In this document: positions 2,014 through 39,448 of the stretch, one piece after another | Layout: each line of letters starts with the position of its first letter | Numbering within the stretch: position 1 is the stretch's first letter | IMG/VR virus record: IMGVR_UViG_3300042090_000759 | Location: 1 to 40,435 of that record | From: a virus | Reading direction: 5' to 3' (one strand) | DNA: 40,435 nt | Notes under the pieces: generated by a model | What the model was told of the DNA's origin: nothing | Seen by the model: the letters and a program-made list of their open reading frames with translations, nothing else | Databases searched by the model: none | Translations under genes and position numbers: made by a program

Positions 2014-4083
2014 TTATAACACTTGCTCTTGATTTTGACTAGGGTTTTGTTGCTGCTGTGGATTTACGTTACTTTGTGATTGGCTCTGTAATGCTTTACC
2101 TAGAATCTCTTCTACAAACTTGTTAGATTGACTTCGCCTTTCAACGTCTTGTTTCTCTGCTTCTTCAATCATCATATTCTCTTGAGCTTGTAAGTCAAGT
2201 TTAGTTTGCTGGTGGTTCGTTTCAATTTCTCCGAATTTCTGTATATTTTCTAGAAGTGATGTAAGAGCAGCTTGTTTTTCTTTAAGAGAAAGGCTTCTAT
2301 TCCTTTCTATCATGCTCAATCTCTCTTCATACAATCCTAGGTTACTTTCGCTACGGCTATGATCTTCCCTAGCTTTTGCCAGATTAGCAGTAGCTTTACT
2401 CATCAATTCTTGCAACTTAGCATGTTCGAAGGCGTGAGCTACTTCTGCCTGCTCTTGCTGCATTTCGGCGGCGCTCTGTTCTTGGCCTTTGAGATATTCG
2501 AGGATTTCGCCTTTTCCTTGAATGTTCATGTCCTTGATAATCATGCTAGGAGGTAGTACCTCACGGCCGAATGTTGTGTTAATTTCCAACATTTGTGAAG
2601 CTTGTAAGTTTCTCTGCGTAGCTGTTAGCAATCCTTCTTGTACTACTGTATGATATTTAGCAAAGATTCTGCTATAGAAATATGGCGTAGGTTCTTCGCC
2701 AATCATAATTTCTATTTTCTCAGGTGACCATTTATTGAGAGCGATAAGTAATAAACGCTCTCCTAATAGCTTCTTAGACTCATCCCATTGGTCAAAGAAT
2801 TTCTGGAAAGGTAGCAAATTAGCAGCCATCTTAGTGAGTAATGTTAACGTGGAAATCTGCTTTTCCTGCTGGCCTGCCCAGTTTTCTAGGTCGATACCGC
2901 TTGTCTTGAATATTAGATCATTCATCTGCTGAGCTAATGCTAGATCACTCTCAGGAACAGCCGAAGGAATTATCTTCTCAACATCCGTGAGCTCGTAACC
3001 GCTATTAATAATAACGTCGTAGCCCTGGCCAGACTTTTTGAGGTTATCCTCGTTAGCCACAGCCCCTGTCTTACGTTTCCATCCTGCGTTAATTGTAGCA
3101 GCGGTTATATCGTTATTTTGGATTACTTTGTAGTTGAAAAGGAATTGCGGCGACCGCATAGGAAAGATCAATGAGCGCGAGCGTAAATCAAACTGGTTAA
3201 TGTGTGGGTCATAGTTCCAGAAGTTACATACAAATGGGCACTCTGGACCATCCCACAATGGATTAACGCCTTGCCACATAAGCTGATCGTTAAGAACAAT
3301 AGCACACTTCCAGCATGGCGATTCAACGGTCACAACTTCTAAATCATCTATAGCATACAAAATCTGCTCAAGATTGCCATCGCCACCAGCAAAATCAAAA
3401 AATTGCTTACGTTTTCTGCTGTATAGACGTTTACGCTTCTGCTTCCATTTATACCACACGTAAGATAGAACCATGAGGTCGTTTCTAGCCATATTATAGT
3501 TTTCAGGAAGAAAATAAAATGTTCCATAGCGTTGAGGCGTTCCATACATGGGGTTAATATCTTGCACTTTTCCAGGAAAGCGTAACTCTGCTTCTTGCTT
3601 TGAAATATATTCTTGACACCACACGAACTGAGCATCGGACATATCAGGATTTCGGAAATATGGATCAACTAAGAAGGAATTGTATTCCCACACCTTTATT
3701 TTTAGCTGGCCCTGGGCCGGATCGTCTCCAGAAAAATCAAGATAAGGCTGCATAAGATTCATGCCGGCAATCGCAGCTAACTCGCATGATTTGCTGTAAC
3801 GCTCGTGCAAATTCTCTTTCTGGCAGCAATTCATGATCAATTTTGTGTACTGATCCGTAGTCTGAGGATCGCTACCATCTATAGCCTGATAAACAATGCT
3901 CTTGCGATGCTGCCTCTCATAGCCAGTCACCATGTTAATGGGCTGCTGGCATATGTTAAAATAAAATTGCTGCGGAGTGATGCCAGGGCTAAACGTAAAG
4001 TTTCGGTTTATGAAGGACTGATTTCCTGCATAAAATAGCGTGTCTGTATTGGATTGGTTCCATCTCGCTTGCTCCACGGGCAT
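2014..4083 (-). CDS. portal protein (P22 gp1-like)
   Basis: The portal forms the dodecameric ring at one capsid vertex through which DNA is packaged and ejected. Length (689 aa from the ATG, 719 from the alternative start) is close to the 725 aa of P22 gp1. Family-like features: an N-terminal QPINMVTGYERQHRKS segment, the core KVWEYNSFLVDPYFRNPDMSDA (a membrane-free β region typical of the P22 portal family), an anti-parallel wing domain, and a long C-terminal helical, Gln-rich tail (about 560-689) corresponding to the P22 barrel. It follows TerL by two small genes, the usual packaging order. The start is doubtful: the frame stays open for 30 codons upstream to an AUU preceded by a perfect AGGAGG, while ATG 4083 has only a weak ribosome site. 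Confidence 0.9.
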   Translation of the reverse strand: MPVEQARWNQSNTDTLFYAGNQSFINRNFTFSPGITPQQFYFNICQQPINMVTGYERQHRKSIVYQAIDGSDPQTTDQYTKLIMNCCQKENLHERYSKSCELAAIAGMNLMQPYLDFSGDDPAQGQLKIKVWEYNSFLVDPYFRNPDMSDAQFVWCQEYISKQEAELRFPGKVQDINPMYGTPQRYGTFYFLPENYNMARNDLMVLSYVWYKWKQKRKRLYSRKRKQFFDFAGGDGNLEQILYAIDDLEVVTVESPCWKCAIVLNDQLMWQGVNPLWDGPECPFVCNFWNYDPHINQFDLRSRSLIFPMRSPQFLFNYKVIQNNDITAATINAGWKRKTGAVANEDNLKKSGQGYDVIINSGYELTDVEKIIPSAVPESDLALAQQMNDLIFKTSGIDLENWAGQQEKQISTLTLLTKMAANLLPFQKFFDQWDESKKLLGERLLLIALNKWSPEKIEIMIGEEPTPYFYSRIFAKYHTVVQEGLLTATQRNLQASQMLEINTTFGREVLPPSMIIKDMNIQGKGEILEYLKGQEQSAAEMQQEQAEVAHAFEHAKLQELMSKATANLAKAREDHSRSESNLGLYEERLSMIERNRSLSLKEKQAALTSLLENIQKFGEIETNHQQTKLDLQAQENMMIEEAEKQDVERRSQSNKFVEEILGKALQSQSQSNVNPQQQQNPSQNQEQVL

Positions 4084-4170
4084 GACTTTACTTTTTAGGT
4101 TTTCAAGCCATGCGCGAACATTTCCTTGATTGGGTTCTTGGTTGGTATCCCAAGGTGCAAGAGAAAAAGA

Positions 4171-4184
4171 AATATACCCCTCCT
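4171..4184 (-). promoter_or_regulatory. strong ribosome site before a possible AUU start of the portal
   Basis: The - strand reads AGGAGGGGTATATT. The AUU at 4173-4171 is in frame with the portal, and no stop intervenes before ATG 4083. The 30 extra residues (for example GNVRAWLENLKSKV) look like genuine coding sequence. No ATG, GTG or TTG lies in frame at a suitable distance from the Shine-Dalgarno sequence. Confidence 0.5.
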
Positions 4185-4195
4185 AAAGGAATAAT

Positions 4196-4260
4196 TTACC
4201 CTTTCTCTACTTTATACCCATGTCTAATTAAAAATTCAATATACCATTTAATCTTATCCT
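4196..4260 (-). other. short open frame without a start codon
   Basis: Between the zinc-ribbon gene and the portal, a frame of about 22 codons (KIKWYIEFLIRHGYKVEKG then stop) looks protein-like but has no usable start. It could be an extension of the upstream gene after a frameshift near its TAG stop, or a decayed small gene. The rest of the gap holds only the portal ribosome site. Confidence 0.3.
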
Positions 4261-4683
4261 CTACTCGCTATAACCTATTTGTTTGACTTTCCCGCAATTA
4301 GTGCATTGCCATTTATCGGCTAGATCAACAAAAATAAGCTCTTCGAATTTACATTTACGGCAAGTAAATAGGATTACCGGTCTTGATGATGTATGCACGT
4401 CTCTTTCAGTTTCTAGCATCCCTCGCAATGATTTCAACGATGTTTTAAGTGTGAGTTGTAAATCCTGTGCGCTATGTAAATGTGCGTTAACTTTATCTTC
4501 TAGAATCTTGACTAATTGTATCACGTAGTGAATATCATATTTGCCTTTAGGAAGGTGAATGCGTAGATCATCTTGTGATGTCAACTCCTGATTATATCCC
4601 AATTTTCTCAAAGGTATGAAGGTCACGTCTTTGCTGTAATCTTTCATGTATTCTTGTTTTTTAGATGGCATTAGCTTCATCAA
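4261..4683 (-). CDS. zinc-ribbon protein, 140 aa
   Basis: The C-terminus has CRKC (about residues 109-112) and CTNC (about 131-134), two CxxC knuckles 18 residues apart, as in zinc ribbons. The N-terminal part is basic (MPSKKQEYMKDYSK), followed by a helical stretch (YVIQLVKILEDKVNAHL). The start overlaps the preceding gene by 23 nt; ATG 4680 or 4671 are alternatives. It sits between TerL and the portal and might help packaging or act on DNA, but no named family is recognised. Confidence 0.7.
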   Translation of the reverse strand: MMKLMPSKKQEYMKDYSKDVTFIPLRKLGYNQELTSQDDLRIHLPKGKYDIHYVIQLVKILEDKVNAHLHSAQDLQLTLKTSLKSLRGMLETERDVHTSSRPVILFTCRKCKFEELIFVDLADKWQCTNCGKVKQIGYSE

Positions 4684-18876: not shown

Positions 18877-18909
18877 TAAGGTTTTCCTTAAAAATTGACA
18901 TATGAAAAA

Positions 18910-19014
18910 ACTGGAGGCAGGGATTGCACCTGCGGCCTCTCCTCATGATAAAACAAGCGTCGACCGTCTTCCTTATCATGGATCATCACGCTCTAACTGC
19001 TGAGCTACTCCAGT
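18910..19014 (-). tRNA. tRNA-like gene with about 33 extra nt in the anticodon region
   Basis: ACTGGAG/CTCCAGT acceptor stem (7 bp), UA, a perfect GCTC/GAGC D-arm, and a GCAGG-TGCAATC-CCTGC T-arm are present. Between D- and T-arm there are 55 nt instead of 22. They contain CATGATAA/TTATCATG as an 8-bp inverted repeat around 21 nt, so no normal 5+7+5 anticodon arm forms. The anticodon cannot be read. It may be a tRNA disrupted by an insertion, a tRNA with an intron, or a tRNA mimic. Confidence 0.55.
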
Positions 19015-37013: not shown

Positions 37014-39448
37014 CTAGAATAATGTGCTTATGCGTGTGCATAAGACGTTTCTGATTCCGGTATCCTGGGTTACAGCTTGCGCTTGAGCAAACTTAATAGC
37101 CAAGGTTGCGTTTTGGGCTAACATGCCACTATAGTACGGATCACGATAGATCAGCTTCATGCTGAAACCATCCTGAGTCACGTGTGTTAAAGCCTGTTTA
37201 CCCAATACAGTATTGTAATAGACATCCTGACCGTTTGCAGATGCTCGACGAGCAACCGGAGCTTCCGAGCTAGTCAAGATTCTATGGTTATAGACGCTAC
37301 CCCATTCCGTTGGCAATGCCGACGTATTGTTGGGATAGTTCCAGTTGTTAAACACGCCTTGCCCAGTCAGACAGTCGAAATCAGTCTGAAGCTCTGTAGA
37401 GCTTAGCATGAAGTACGACGAACGTATTGGGCCTGTCAATCTGTTACTTTAATAACCTATTTGATATACTTGCCATTTGCTATACAGCAAAGTTGCTTAC
37501 TCCCACCTGACCGGTAAATCGTTGTGGGGCAGCTCCTTCACTAATCGCCTGATGAGTCGCCTGACGAAACTCTTATGAGTCGCGAAGCGCCACCAGAAGG
37601 AGTCGTGTTGTGGCAGTGGCCGGTCATTTTTCAAATAGGCGAGCAAGTCATTTCTGCTTGCTTCTCTACCTTTATTTATTCGTAGAGTTCAGACTATCGC
37701 TTATGTTAATATTAGGCATTGGTGAGTTGCATAATTTACTTCTGAAATAAGATTTTGCAGCATCACAATTCAATGGATTATTAACATCCTCAGGACTTAG
37801 TCGTTCAAGCCGATTATTAAAATATTTTTCTATTTCTTCTTTATTCATCCAAACTTTTTCTATTTCATTCCAAAATATTTCCATAATCTTGCCCCTTGTT
37901 AACCTTCTATGCTGCCATAGTAAGGCACTCCAAGTCAATCACCCAAGGTTTTAATTCGGCACACACTTTACCGAATCTGTCCATGCCTTCGATACCCGAC
38001 ATGAACTTAAAGGCATTGTTAGAATCCAACGTAGTAGCTACAAGGCTAAAATCCGACAAACCTAGGTTTGTTGGGTTGTCACCATTGTTTCCACCACCTG
38101 CATTAATTTCCGACGCCGCGGAAACTACGTAGTCGCGGAGGATTAAATCCTCGGCTTGACGCATTGCTACAGCCAAGCGTTCAGAAACCCAGGCCAAAAC
38201 GCCTTCTTGCGCATTGTTACTCCTCGTAATGAGGGGTGAAGTCATTTCTGCTTCACTCTAACGGTTTCCTCGTTAGACCCGACTATCGCTTTATCCCGTT
38301 ATCAAGGATATCCAACCGCTTTAGTCTGTCACGGCGCATAATTTTTTTCTGACTTCTTTAAGCCAGTCAATTCTTTCTCTAAAAGATAAATTGTTTTCTT
38401 TACAATATTCATTGATTATGAAATAGGCTAATCTATTTAACCCTTCATCTTTTTCAGAAACTTCTATCAATTTATCATGTTCTATAAAAATTGAATCATT
38501 CATGCTTCCGCCTTATTTCCATGCCACCCATTAATTTGGGCGGTTTAGGAGTCCAAGTCAATTAGGTCAGATTTAACCAGGACCAAATTATATAATAAAT
38601 CCTGGAGAATAACTTGTTCGTTAATTATGCAACCAGTCTTTCATAATTACAAGTTAATTCATTTTCGGCACTGTAATTAAATAAACCGAAAAAAGCCATT
38701 TGAGTGTCAATAATATCCCTCTGCGGAATTTGCGCAGCAGGGTCGATCCCACTATTGCCCAGTTGGACAGTAGGTGGTTGTAGTGCTCTCGGACGCATGA
38801 ACCGGCAAGTTGTACCGCCGTTTGTGGGCATTGCTACCTTGTCACAAACTGTAATATAGTTCATACTTGGAGTAGGCACATACAACATAGCTGGCAATCT
38901 GTTACTTGTTGACCAGTCGGTTACATTTTGTAACTTACTGGCGGGCCAAATCGTCTCCGCTGGCCTCTCTATGTCTCCATAGAGTTCAGAGCACCGCATC
39001 CTAATAAATCTGGATTTACTCCTGCACAATTCTTTACAAATTCTACATCTTGATCAAGACGCATTTTTGTCAACGTTTCTGGCTCAGGAGGAACCATCAT
39101 TTCAATTAGGTCTTCTCGCTTGCTGCGTTCAGGCTGATTATGTTTTTCAAAGATATATCGACGCATGTCATTTGAACAATCCGAACAATATTGCATAGTC
39201 GGTGCCATCCCAAATTTTCTATAACCTTCTTCACATTCTGCTGGCACTAGCGCCATTTGTATATATTCGTCTGAATCTAAAATTTCATATTTACATGCTT
39301 TACATTTCATAATCTTGCCCCTTGTTGTCCTTCTATTTTTATATAGTTAGGAGTTCCAAGTCCATCAGAGAAGATTTATACTCGCCCAACATTAAGCGAG
39401 TGATTGGAGAATCATTGGCCCCAAATTTGAAGTCGTAGTTAAACTCAT
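37014..39448 (-). CDS. major capsid protein (N4-gp56/HK97-like), split by three group I introns
   Basis: Exons: 39448-39395, 38912-38685, 38631-38599, 38209-37970 and 37436-37014. Joining them gives 325 aa: MSLTTTSNLGPMILQSLA, then ASTSNRLPAMLYVPTPSMNY, the conserved NGGTTCRFMRPRALQPPTVQ, QMAFFG|CIINEQVILQD|QEGVLAWVSERL, then MDRFG|TGPIRSSYFMLSST to the end. The GGT..F-R-R..L...T.PL..G and Y-V-x-I-x-x-x-V.L patterns fit the N4-gp56 capsid family (HK97 fold). It lies directly after the scaffold gene. Each intron has predicted splice sites (P1 and P10), and all splices keep the frame. Between the second and third exon, 50 nt must be skipped (see separate entry). GAGG (39461-39458) is the ribosome site. 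The 3' splice site of intron 2 might be 38222 (adding four residues). Confidence 0.85.
37437..37969 (-). ncRNA. group I intron 3 in the capsid gene (about 533 nt)
   Basis: P1: exon ATTCGGT pairs with GCCGAAT, U·G after GGT 37970. Core: ATTGACTTGGAGTGCCTTA, P5 CTATG/CATAG, TTAACAAGGGGCAAG, P7 GACTA (37796-37809) with TAGTC (37687-37698), P9 CTCTAC/GTAGAG, P9.1 GCAAG/CTTGC with the same CAGAAATGA loop as intron 2. A long GC-rich 3' extension (37460-37650) holds several hairpins before the end GATTG (37437); P10 ACA/TGT. P7 bases differ from intron 1 by compensating changes. Confidence 0.75.
37672..37884 (-). CDS. intron 3 ORF, 70 aa
   Basis: ATG 37884 follows AAGGGGCAAGATT, the same start context as intron 1's ORF. 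MEIFWNEIEKVWMNKEEIEK, then NRLERLSPEDVNNPLNCDAA and a Cys-containing basic part. The frame runs through both P7 strands and ends in P9. No known homing-endonuclease motif. Reading ERLSPED / ERSKRED in intron 1 shows the two ORFs share the coding over P7. Confidence 0.55.
   Translation of the reverse strand: MEIFWNEIEKVWMNKEEIEKYFNNRLERLSPEDVNNPLNCDAAKSYFRSKLCNSPMPNINISDSLNSTNK
38210..38598 (-). ncRNA. group I intron 2 in the capsid gene (about 389 nt)
   Basis: P1: CCAGGAU/GUCCUGG with U·G at the splice after GAT 38599. Core in order: ATTGACTTGGACTCCTAA, P5 CCGCCC/GGGTGG, P6 GGCGGAAGCAT with ATGCGCC flanking the ORF, P7 (R) GACAGACTA at 38330-38342 with (S) TAGTCGGGTC at 38276-38287, P8 TATCC/GGATA, P9 CTAACG/CGTTAG, P9.1 GTGAAG/CTTCAC. 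This is close to the Azoarcus-type plan and the best-preserved of the three. 3' splice after GCG 38210 gives CAAG pairing to TTTG (P10); 38222 is the alternative. Confidence 0.8.
38321..38503 (-). CDS. intron 2 ORF, 60 aa
   Basis: The start ATG is part of the P6 stem, preceded by AAGGCGGAAGC. The product (MNDSIFIEHDKLIEVSEKDE, then helices FRERIDWLKEVRKKL) is small, acidic then basic. No endonuclease or maturase motif is visible. It ends before the P7 5' strand, so it lies wholly within the P6 loop. Confidence 0.5.
   Translation of the reverse strand: MNDSIFIEHDKLIEVSEKDEGLNRLAYFIINEYCKENNLSFRERIDWLKEVRKKLCAVTD
38632..38684 (-). other. 50-nt coding gap with landing GGT, bypass-like
   Basis: Between GGT (38687-38685, ends AFFG) and GGT (38634-38632, precedes CIINEQ) lie exactly 50 nt that are in frame until a TAA at 38627-38625 and put the following exon in the wrong frame (50 = 3n+2). 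They contain TAATTAC/GTAATTA (7 bp, 22-nt loop). Skipping from one GGT to the other yields a protein that aligns without gaps to the family. T4 gene 60 uses matching GGA codons around a gap of similar size. A sequencing indel plus true insertion is the alternative. Confidence 0.5.
38913..39394 (-). ncRNA. group I intron 1 in the capsid gene (about 482 nt)
   Basis: P1: exon CTCGCT pairs with GGCGAG, U·G at the cut after GCU 39395. P10: CAACA of the 3' exon pairs with TGTTG. Upstream of the ORF are the shared element ACTTGGAACTCCTAA, P5 hairpin CTAT/ATAG and ACAAGGGGCAAG (P4 3' strand). P7: CAGCA near 39119-39132 with TGCT...G at 38984-38995 (GGTGCTCTGAAC). Then come P9 CTCTATG-GAGA-CATAGAG and hairpins GGCCA/TGGCC and GTTACA/TGTAAC; final G at 38913. 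An ORF fills P6-P8. Confidence 0.75.
38969..39310 (-). CDS. intron 1 ORF, four-cysteine protein, 113 aa
   Basis: Starts in the intron's P6 region (GGGGCAAGATT before ATG) and reads through the P7 sequences to TAG in P9. CKACKYE and YCSDCSND give two CxxC pairs, a probable zinc site; the rest is helical and charged. It shows none of the HNH, GIY-YIG, LAGLIDADG, PD-(D/E)xK or His-Cys box signatures of usual intron endonucleases. It could be a novel homing factor, a maturase or a passenger gene. Confidence 0.6.
   Translation of the reverse strand: MKCKACKYEILDSDEYIQMALVPAECEEGYRKFGMAPTMQYCSDCSNDMRRYIFEKHNQPERSKREDLIEMMVPPEPETLTKMRLDQDVEFVKNCAGVNPDLLGCGALNSMET

Follow-up and report, generated by a model that had tools for sequence, protein, structure and literature searches.

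Group I introns have been described in phage capsid genes: one interrupts the capsid gene of mycobacteriophage LittleE (PMC3706429), and another, as cited in the same paper, that of the lactococcal phage Tuc2009. The in-frame stop codons of phage introns are usually explained as excluding ribosomes from the ribozyme (PMC3984707). Here we analyze a virus record of 40,435 bases, IMGVR_UViG_3300042090_000759, a single contig referred to in the following as the window. In the region 37014–39448, on the minus strand, the window encodes its major capsid protein (MCP) in pieces: five exons separated by four inserts of 500, 47, 389 and 533 nt, located at residues 18, 88, 101 and 181, respectively. Comparison with related genes makes it likely that the five exons are joined by group I splicing, that the 47-nt insert, which is coreless, is spliced by the ribozyme core of a neighboring intron, and that ssrA-like tails encoded in the inserts lead to proteolysis of the products of unspliced message. 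We also lean toward a broader reading, in which such coreless inserts (29–93 nt, or longer with a LAGLIDADG endonuclease) would form a natural, non-autonomous class of group I introns, removed by the neighbor's ribozyme and tied to that neighbor as an obligate pair, whose coreless member contributes the ssrA-type tag of the unspliced capsid product.

The capsid gene and its relatives

The interrupted gene is an N4-gp56-type MCP gene, as the initial annotation had proposed: an uninterrupted relative, 79–92% identical to the window gene over the exons, matched TIGR04387 (N4-gp56) with E = 2.7e-23 (82.8 bits, against a cut-off of 60) and the phrog_1357 major head protein with E = 1.6e-17. A protein search of cultured phages returned only remote capsid matches, at 25% identity and E about 6e-3.

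Exons and inserts were mapped by protein-to-genome alignment with a position-specific scoring matrix (PSSM) of 65 uninterrupted MCPs. Removal of all four inserts yields a protein of 321 aa, whereas removal of the three long introns alone leads to a frameshift and a stop after 107 codons (...ERLVA*). The initial annotation had counted three introns and joined the exons in frame into a 325-aa protein; that count and that product did not hold, as the 47-nt insert had been overlooked. This insert is flanked by TTCGGT and ACTGGT and is not found in uninterrupted homologues, which read FFG-TGC without it, so that its reading as coding sequence was rejected; 18 other genes carry an insert at site 88. 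Other parts of the annotation stood: the 18-codon first exon, the three P1 helices that it had named, each placing a U·G at its 5' splice site, here on the minus strand, the shared core element TTGACTTGGA, and the P7 and P9-like hairpins. Its observation was confirmed in its signals and capsid family, and its interpretation in the group I assignment and the family, and neither in the number of inserts.

Three scans of a viral collection produced 239 locus entries, which together with the window represent 132 distinct capsid genes (131 relatives, from uncultivated viruses of bacteria). L048, where the automatic mapping broke, was excluded from the counts, and any insert called ahead of residue 5 was dismissed as an artefact of the region around the start codon. 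The capsid gene family is an intron hotspot: 152 inserts, distributed over 40 sites, were found in 65 genes, and a single gene may hold as many as six. The interruptions are not a chance reading, since 60 of the 132 genes are uninterrupted and lack exactly the segments that intervene in the window gene. Three introns in one capsid gene, which had been considered unusual, are so among described phages but not in this clade, where one to six inserts are common.

Group I cores of the long inserts

The group I core was aligned from 31 small introns of the relatives (196–248 nt), covering P3, P4, P5, P6, P8 and the P7 pseudoknot. Paired cells made up 97.6% of the alignment's helices, two-sided changes occurred in 23 of 28 pairs, and the covariation score was 0.629, compared to 0.195 in shuffles (0 of 500 reached it). 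The P7 pseudoknot was 99.4% paired; when the partners were slid by 1–3 columns, pairing dropped to 36–43%. A covariance model made from these introns matched all three long inserts of the window on the minus strand: intron 3 at 37788–37948 (E = 8e-7), intron 1 at 39240–39380 (E = 8e-5) and again at 38984–39069 (E = 0.015), and intron 2 at 38452–38577 (E = 1.5e-3). Nothing of comparable score appeared elsewhere in the window. Across 65 sources, at E up to 0.01, all 120 model matches fell inside MCP gene spans and 118 of them within inserts that had been mapped from protein alone.

All 118 long inserts have a terminal G and a U before the 5' site, both of which the alignment score favors, and their P1 averages 5.9 bp. 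In one relative the site-90 intron also matched the Rfam group I model (RF00028) with 76.9 bits against a gathering score of 50, which is a library threshold and not a biological defining feature. Together, the splice signals, the covarying core and the intronless relatives identify the three long inserts, by sequence, as group I introns with their own ribozyme core, for which GTP-dependent self-splicing is predicted. Below-threshold Rfam matches to SL2 and LOOT in the window were rejected as chance.

Intron 2 is homologous to an ORF-less intron of 242 nt in L072 (ORF, open reading frame). No homing endonuclease was found in the window's own introns, whose ORFs of 113, 60 and 70 aa had no convincing family match. 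Long introns of L002, L012, L020, L030, L059 and L186 contain long, low-complexity-looking ORFs on the plus strand, perhaps as the reverse complement of endonuclease genes encoded on the other strand. The local sequence is identical at sites 88 and 181, TTCGGT|AC, and so is the insert guide, GTGCCGAA, in the window (38685–38692 and 37970–37976) and in relatives, a likeness that would be expected if the introns move via reverse splicing or retargeting.

Coreless inserts and their neighbors

At residues 88, 91, 104 and 114 we found 34 inserts of only 29–93 nt, too short to hold a core. Every one of them ends in G, and the automatic count recognized a clear P1 in all except that of L061, with 6.1 bp on average in addition to the U·G. 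The nucleotides just 5' of the wobble G pair with the insert's own 3' exon (P10) over a mean of 4.6 bp. With the 3' exon of the next intron the mean is 0.4 bp, and splicing from the 5' site of the mini-intron to the 3' site of the next intron was rejected for this reason. P10 occurs in covarying variants (ACUGG/CCAGU, ACAGG/CCUGU, ACGGG/CCCGU, GUAUU/AAUAC and GUGUU/AACAC), and none of 2000 within-site shuffles reached the observed total. At site 88 an extra helix extends across the 3' splice site (mean 7.9 bp; 0 of 500 within-site swaps), and this helix was also seen when the window sequence was folded. No covariance model match to a catalytic core was obtained in the coreless inserts, whether of 29–93 nt or filled by an endonuclease ORF. 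On these signals, the 47-nt insert would behave as a group I substrate and not as an autonomous group I intron. This combination of group I splice signals with the lack of a catalytic core is the gene's most unusual feature, and the insert that shows it had escaped the initial annotation.

Four inserts at site 104 are much longer, 946–976 nt (plus one in L048). They likewise have no core match, share P1 with its U·G, a covarying P10 and the terminal G, and carry the guide sequence of the short inserts at the 3' end, and an ORF of 289–296 aa fills their P1 loop. The ORF of L011 matches LAGLIDADG_1 (E = 2e-9), and the last codons of this endonuclease, ACGCCCTCTTAG, are the guide sequence itself. 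In both the L011 insert (3535–4484) and the site-104 insert of L063, the last codons plus the stop make up the intron guide. Protein end and splice signal are therefore under mutual constraint. In L061, the 93-nt insert retains the end of the endonuclease gene (ATGTTGAACAACACGCCCTCTTAG), which is direct evidence that mini-inserts can arise through endonuclease loss. Across the clade, coreless inserts may originate or be dispersed together with a LAGLIDADG endonuclease that occupies the P1 loop, and this endonuclease can afterwards disappear.

In each of the 35 genes that contain a coreless insert, a core intron begins 24–96 nt downstream of it, in nine site combinations, compared to 5 of the 30 other core-bearing genes (p = 2e-13, among core-bearing genes). 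Coreless inserts are absent from the 25 genes in which every core intron is located elsewhere, and from the intronless genes. The exons between a coreless insert and its core intron are 99.4% identical to the consensus, showing that they are retained in the product. Coreless inserts thus probably borrow the ribozyme of their downstream neighbor; in the window, the 47-nt insert would most likely be excised by the core of intron 2, which starts 39 nt downstream. Some genes (L035, L033 and L054) contain two mini-introns, at 88 and at 104 or 114, which suggests that a single core may process two or more coreless inserts.

Alternatively, the coreless inserts might be excised through group I chemistry that any core available in the cell could provide, or with the help of a protein factor, rather than by the adjacent intron specifically. 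P1, P10 and a terminal G are generic substrates, and engineered group I spliceozymes do remove introns in trans (PMC4094466). We nevertheless consider this unlikely, as a freely acting core would not account for the 24–96 nt spacing, nor for the lack of coreless inserts in the 25 genes with cores elsewhere and the 60-odd intronless ones.

Read-through tails

The capsid frame was read into each insert up to the first stop. Among exposed inserts at residue 60 or beyond, 65 of 76 end in -AA, compared to 0 of 76 in each of the other two frames and 3.9% of shuffled inserts. The -AA endings are encoded by 42 codon combinations and all three stops, suggesting selection on the peptide and not on one RNA motif, and they occur in all three insertion phases and also in mini-introns without P5 or P6. 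Tails such as EYALLAAA and AEQYALAA closely resemble ssrA, and -xAA corresponds to C-motif 1 of ClpXP (PMC9775585). In the window, the tail in intron 3 (LTMAA) matches C-motif 1 and that at the mini-intron (ERLVA) is a variant, while intron 1 has an immediate stop (...QSLA*) and intron 2, reading LIDLDS*, has no degron of its own. The initial annotation had overlooked these -xAA and -LVA tails before in-frame stops inside the inserts.

Of the 17 inserts located before residue 60, none ends in -AA. Among core introns that immediately follow a coreless insert, -AA was found in 2 of 38, compared to 44 of 49 exposed ones (p = 2e-16), suggesting a division of labor in which the tail comes from the coreless insert and the catalyst from the core intron. 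There are also eleven mini-intron genes in which the ribosome would reach the stop only in the next exon, in a shifted frame; residue 92 is encoded by ATA, which makes the shifted TAA, in 10 of these 11 genes compared to 4 of 65 intronless genes. The inserts appear, from these patterns, to end half-made capsid protein in a built-in, ssrA-like destruction tag. Where the tail falls within P5, the P5 loop of the intron holds an additional short hairpin (CTGC..GCAG) coding for -LAA, which most of the small early-site introns lack.

The -AA endings could instead be by-products of P5/P6 structure, with no role in turnover, the stops serving only to bar ribosomes from the ribozyme. That is the usual explanation for in-frame stops in group I introns, about nine inserts take their -AA from a conserved P6 element, and the T4 td, nrdB and nrdD introns stop immediately and have no -AA tail. 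A structural origin seems doubtful, however, given the variety of codons, stops and phases, the tails of mini-introns that lack the helices concerned and the empty alternative frames. Nor would it explain why tails are missing from short peptides and from those that an insert further upstream has tagged already, or why the codon choice at residue 92 differs within the exon itself.

Proposed mechanism

The boundaries, the reading frame, the covariation of P1, P10, the 3' helix and the core, the co-occurrence with core introns and the enrichment of -AA stops are supported by the sequences; the splicing reaction, the origin of the core that acts on the coreless insert and the proteolysis are what we infer from them. 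We propose that the capsid pre-mRNA is assembled from five exons via group I splicing. The three long inserts would bring their own cores, while the 47-nt insert would keep only the substrate parts: P1 with its U·G, P10, the 3'-splice-site helix and the terminal G. Ribosomes translating unspliced message would enter the first insert and stop, and the truncated fragment, with an ssrA-like end (-LAA, -LVA, -MAA or similar), would go to ClpXP-type proteolysis and not poison capsid assembly. The core introns would splice out both themselves and the coreless inserts, giving the full capsid message. In such a pair, the coreless insert would supply the tag and the core intron the catalyst.

Translational bypassing of the short inserts might also restore the frame. 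In T4 gene 60, ribosomes bypass a gap of 50 nt, and a mobile endonuclease is linked to the gene. The insertion of mobA in gene 60 is mentioned in PMC2988022. The size of the inserts is like that of the T4 gap, they have a hairpin at the 5' edge that could serve as a take-off structure, and they contain in-frame stop codons. Bypassing is nonetheless very unlikely here: there is no matching in-frame landing codon (take-off at GGT, against last insert bases ttg, gcg, tag, aag etc.), P10 covaries with the 3' exon, the four site-104 inserts of the same class are about 950 nt long with a whole endonuclease gene inside, and a core intron is always adjacent. That the insert-bearing genes are defective or assembly artefacts can hardly be the case, for although every record is a metagenomic contig, sites and structures recur across many independent metagenomes and exons are conserved over their full length, at 99% even in the short exons between inserts.

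Several points weigh against the splicing and tagging mechanism. The genes are related, so that the counts represent non-independent events, and the alignment score favored T and G at the insert ends, although it did not favor P1, P10, the 3' helix or the tails. At gathering and at relaxed thresholds, Rfam gave no group I match in the window, where the initial annotation had suggested Intron_gpI as a check, while the covariance model from the relatives' small introns matched all three long introns. The mini-intron has no detectable core, and no report of a natural group I core acting in trans on a coreless neighbor was found in the literature searched, which did not cover subscription papers. 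For around nine of the -AA tails, which lie within the conserved P6 element GCAGC(G/C)TGA, RNA structure could be part of the cause. The window's tail at the mini-intron is -LVA, not -LAA, and the likeness of -AA is to ssrA tags generally, rather than to the tag of an identified host.

Features of the locus and its surroundings

The predicted features of the gene are listed in Table 1.

Table 1. Predicted exons, introns and signals of the interrupted MCP gene, in window coordinates.
Feature	Position	Strand	Remarks
MCP exon 1	39395..39448	-	18 codons; ATG start at 39448; PSSM alignment
Intron 1, group I, site 18	38895..39394	-	500 nt; P1 ACTCGCT/GGCGAGT with U·G
113-aa ORF in intron 1	38969..39310	-	Cys-rich; no convincing family match
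MCP exon 2	38685..38894	-	PSSM alignment
Coreless mini-intron, site 88	38638..38684	-	47 nt; frame +47; P1, P10, terminal G
Mini-intron P1, 5' strand TTTTCGGT	38685..38692	-	Lies in the exon; its T makes the U·G pair
Mini-intron P1, 3' strand / internal guide GCCGAAAA	38662..38669	-	
Mini-intron guide, P10 strand CAGT	38670..38673	-	Pairs with ACTG 38634-38637, exon 3
Helix spanning mini-intron 3' splice site	38622..38649	-	TAATTATG 38642-38649 with CATAATTA 38622-38629
ssrA-like read-through tail ERLVA* of unspliced message	38625..38642	-	Stop TAA 38625-38627
MCP exon 3	38599..38637	-	13 codons, TGCIINEQVILQD; PSSM alignment
Intron 2, group I, site 101	38210..38598	-	389 nt; P1 CCAGGAT/GTCCTGG
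60-aa ORF in intron 2 P6 loop	38321..38503	-	No convincing family match
MCP exon 4	37970..38209	-	PSSM alignment
Intron 3, group I, site 181	37437..37969	-	533 nt; P1 ATTCGGT/GCCGAAT
ssrA-like read-through tail LTMAA* in intron 3	37907..37924	-	
70-aa ORF overlapping intron 3 core	37672..37884	-	No convincing family match
MCP exon 5 incl. stop codon	37014..37436	-	PSSM alignment
Predicted exon junction, all inserts out			TTTTTCGGT joined to ACTGGTTGC

Elsewhere, the window carries portal, large terminase and tail fibre genes. At 18909–19014 on the minus strand there is a tRNA-like element (Rfam tRNA, 38 bits) that was not called by ARAGORN; its acceptor and T arms are good, and the anticodon arm is replaced by about 50 nt that include a long hairpin. 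Six capsid relatives (L240–L245) come from metagenome bins of unrelated phyla (Nitrospiraceae, Bacteroidales, Chlamydiia and Patescibacteria) that are probably misbinned, and host assignment via these genome contigs gave no conclusion.

Comparison with known systems

No report of natural viral group I introns that encode a degron, are coreless or act in trans was found in the literature searched, again without subscription papers. If our reading is correct, these would be the first natural group I introns, as far as we found, to have discarded their catalyst and to depend on that of another intron. They would provide a small, testable model for the movement of intron catalysis from cis to trans, the group I equivalent of a transition from self-splicing to trans-catalyzed introns. 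They would also represent a self-splicing intron adapted to protein quality control, in which a protease tag in the intron deals with the price that a cell lacking a nucleus pays when unspliced mRNA is translated. Because coreless and core introns occur in pairs, short plasmid constructs would allow a direct test of both claims.

Like the introns of LittleE, Tuc2009 and T4 td, nrdB and nrdD, those described here have a U before the 5' site, a G at the 3' end, sometimes an endonuclease, and in-frame stops after the 5' exon. In contrast, the known systems have one intron per gene and no coreless companions have been described, and the T4 stops come without an -AA tail. T4 gene 60 has a comparable insert of about 50 nt in a phage gene, with a hairpin, a stop codon and a link to a homing endonuclease, but the clade's inserts lack a matched landing codon and have P10, a terminal G and endonuclease-bearing forms of about 950 nt.

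For the tails, one parallel is the unspliced HAC1 message of yeast, in which, as reported from Di Santo et al. in PMC8002603, the intron encodes a C-terminal degron just before the intronic stop. In both cases, translation into the retained intron would append a C-terminal degron; HAC1, according to that account, is a single eukaryotic gene processed by Ire1 with another degron, whereas here the introns are group I introns of viral capsid genes and the tail is of the bacterial ssrA type. In the ssrA system itself, a C-terminal -LAA or -xAA, the C-motif 1 of ClpXP, likewise marks truncated proteins, but there the tail is added by transfer-messenger RNA and here it would be written into the message. 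The arrangement of coreless and core introns resembles the engineered spliceozyme, in which a group I core removes a short intron (64–100 nt) with only recognition sequences near the splice sites. The spliceozyme was designed, however, and carries the guide and the 3' recognition sequence on the ribozyme, whereas the clade's coreless inserts are natural and carry their own guide.

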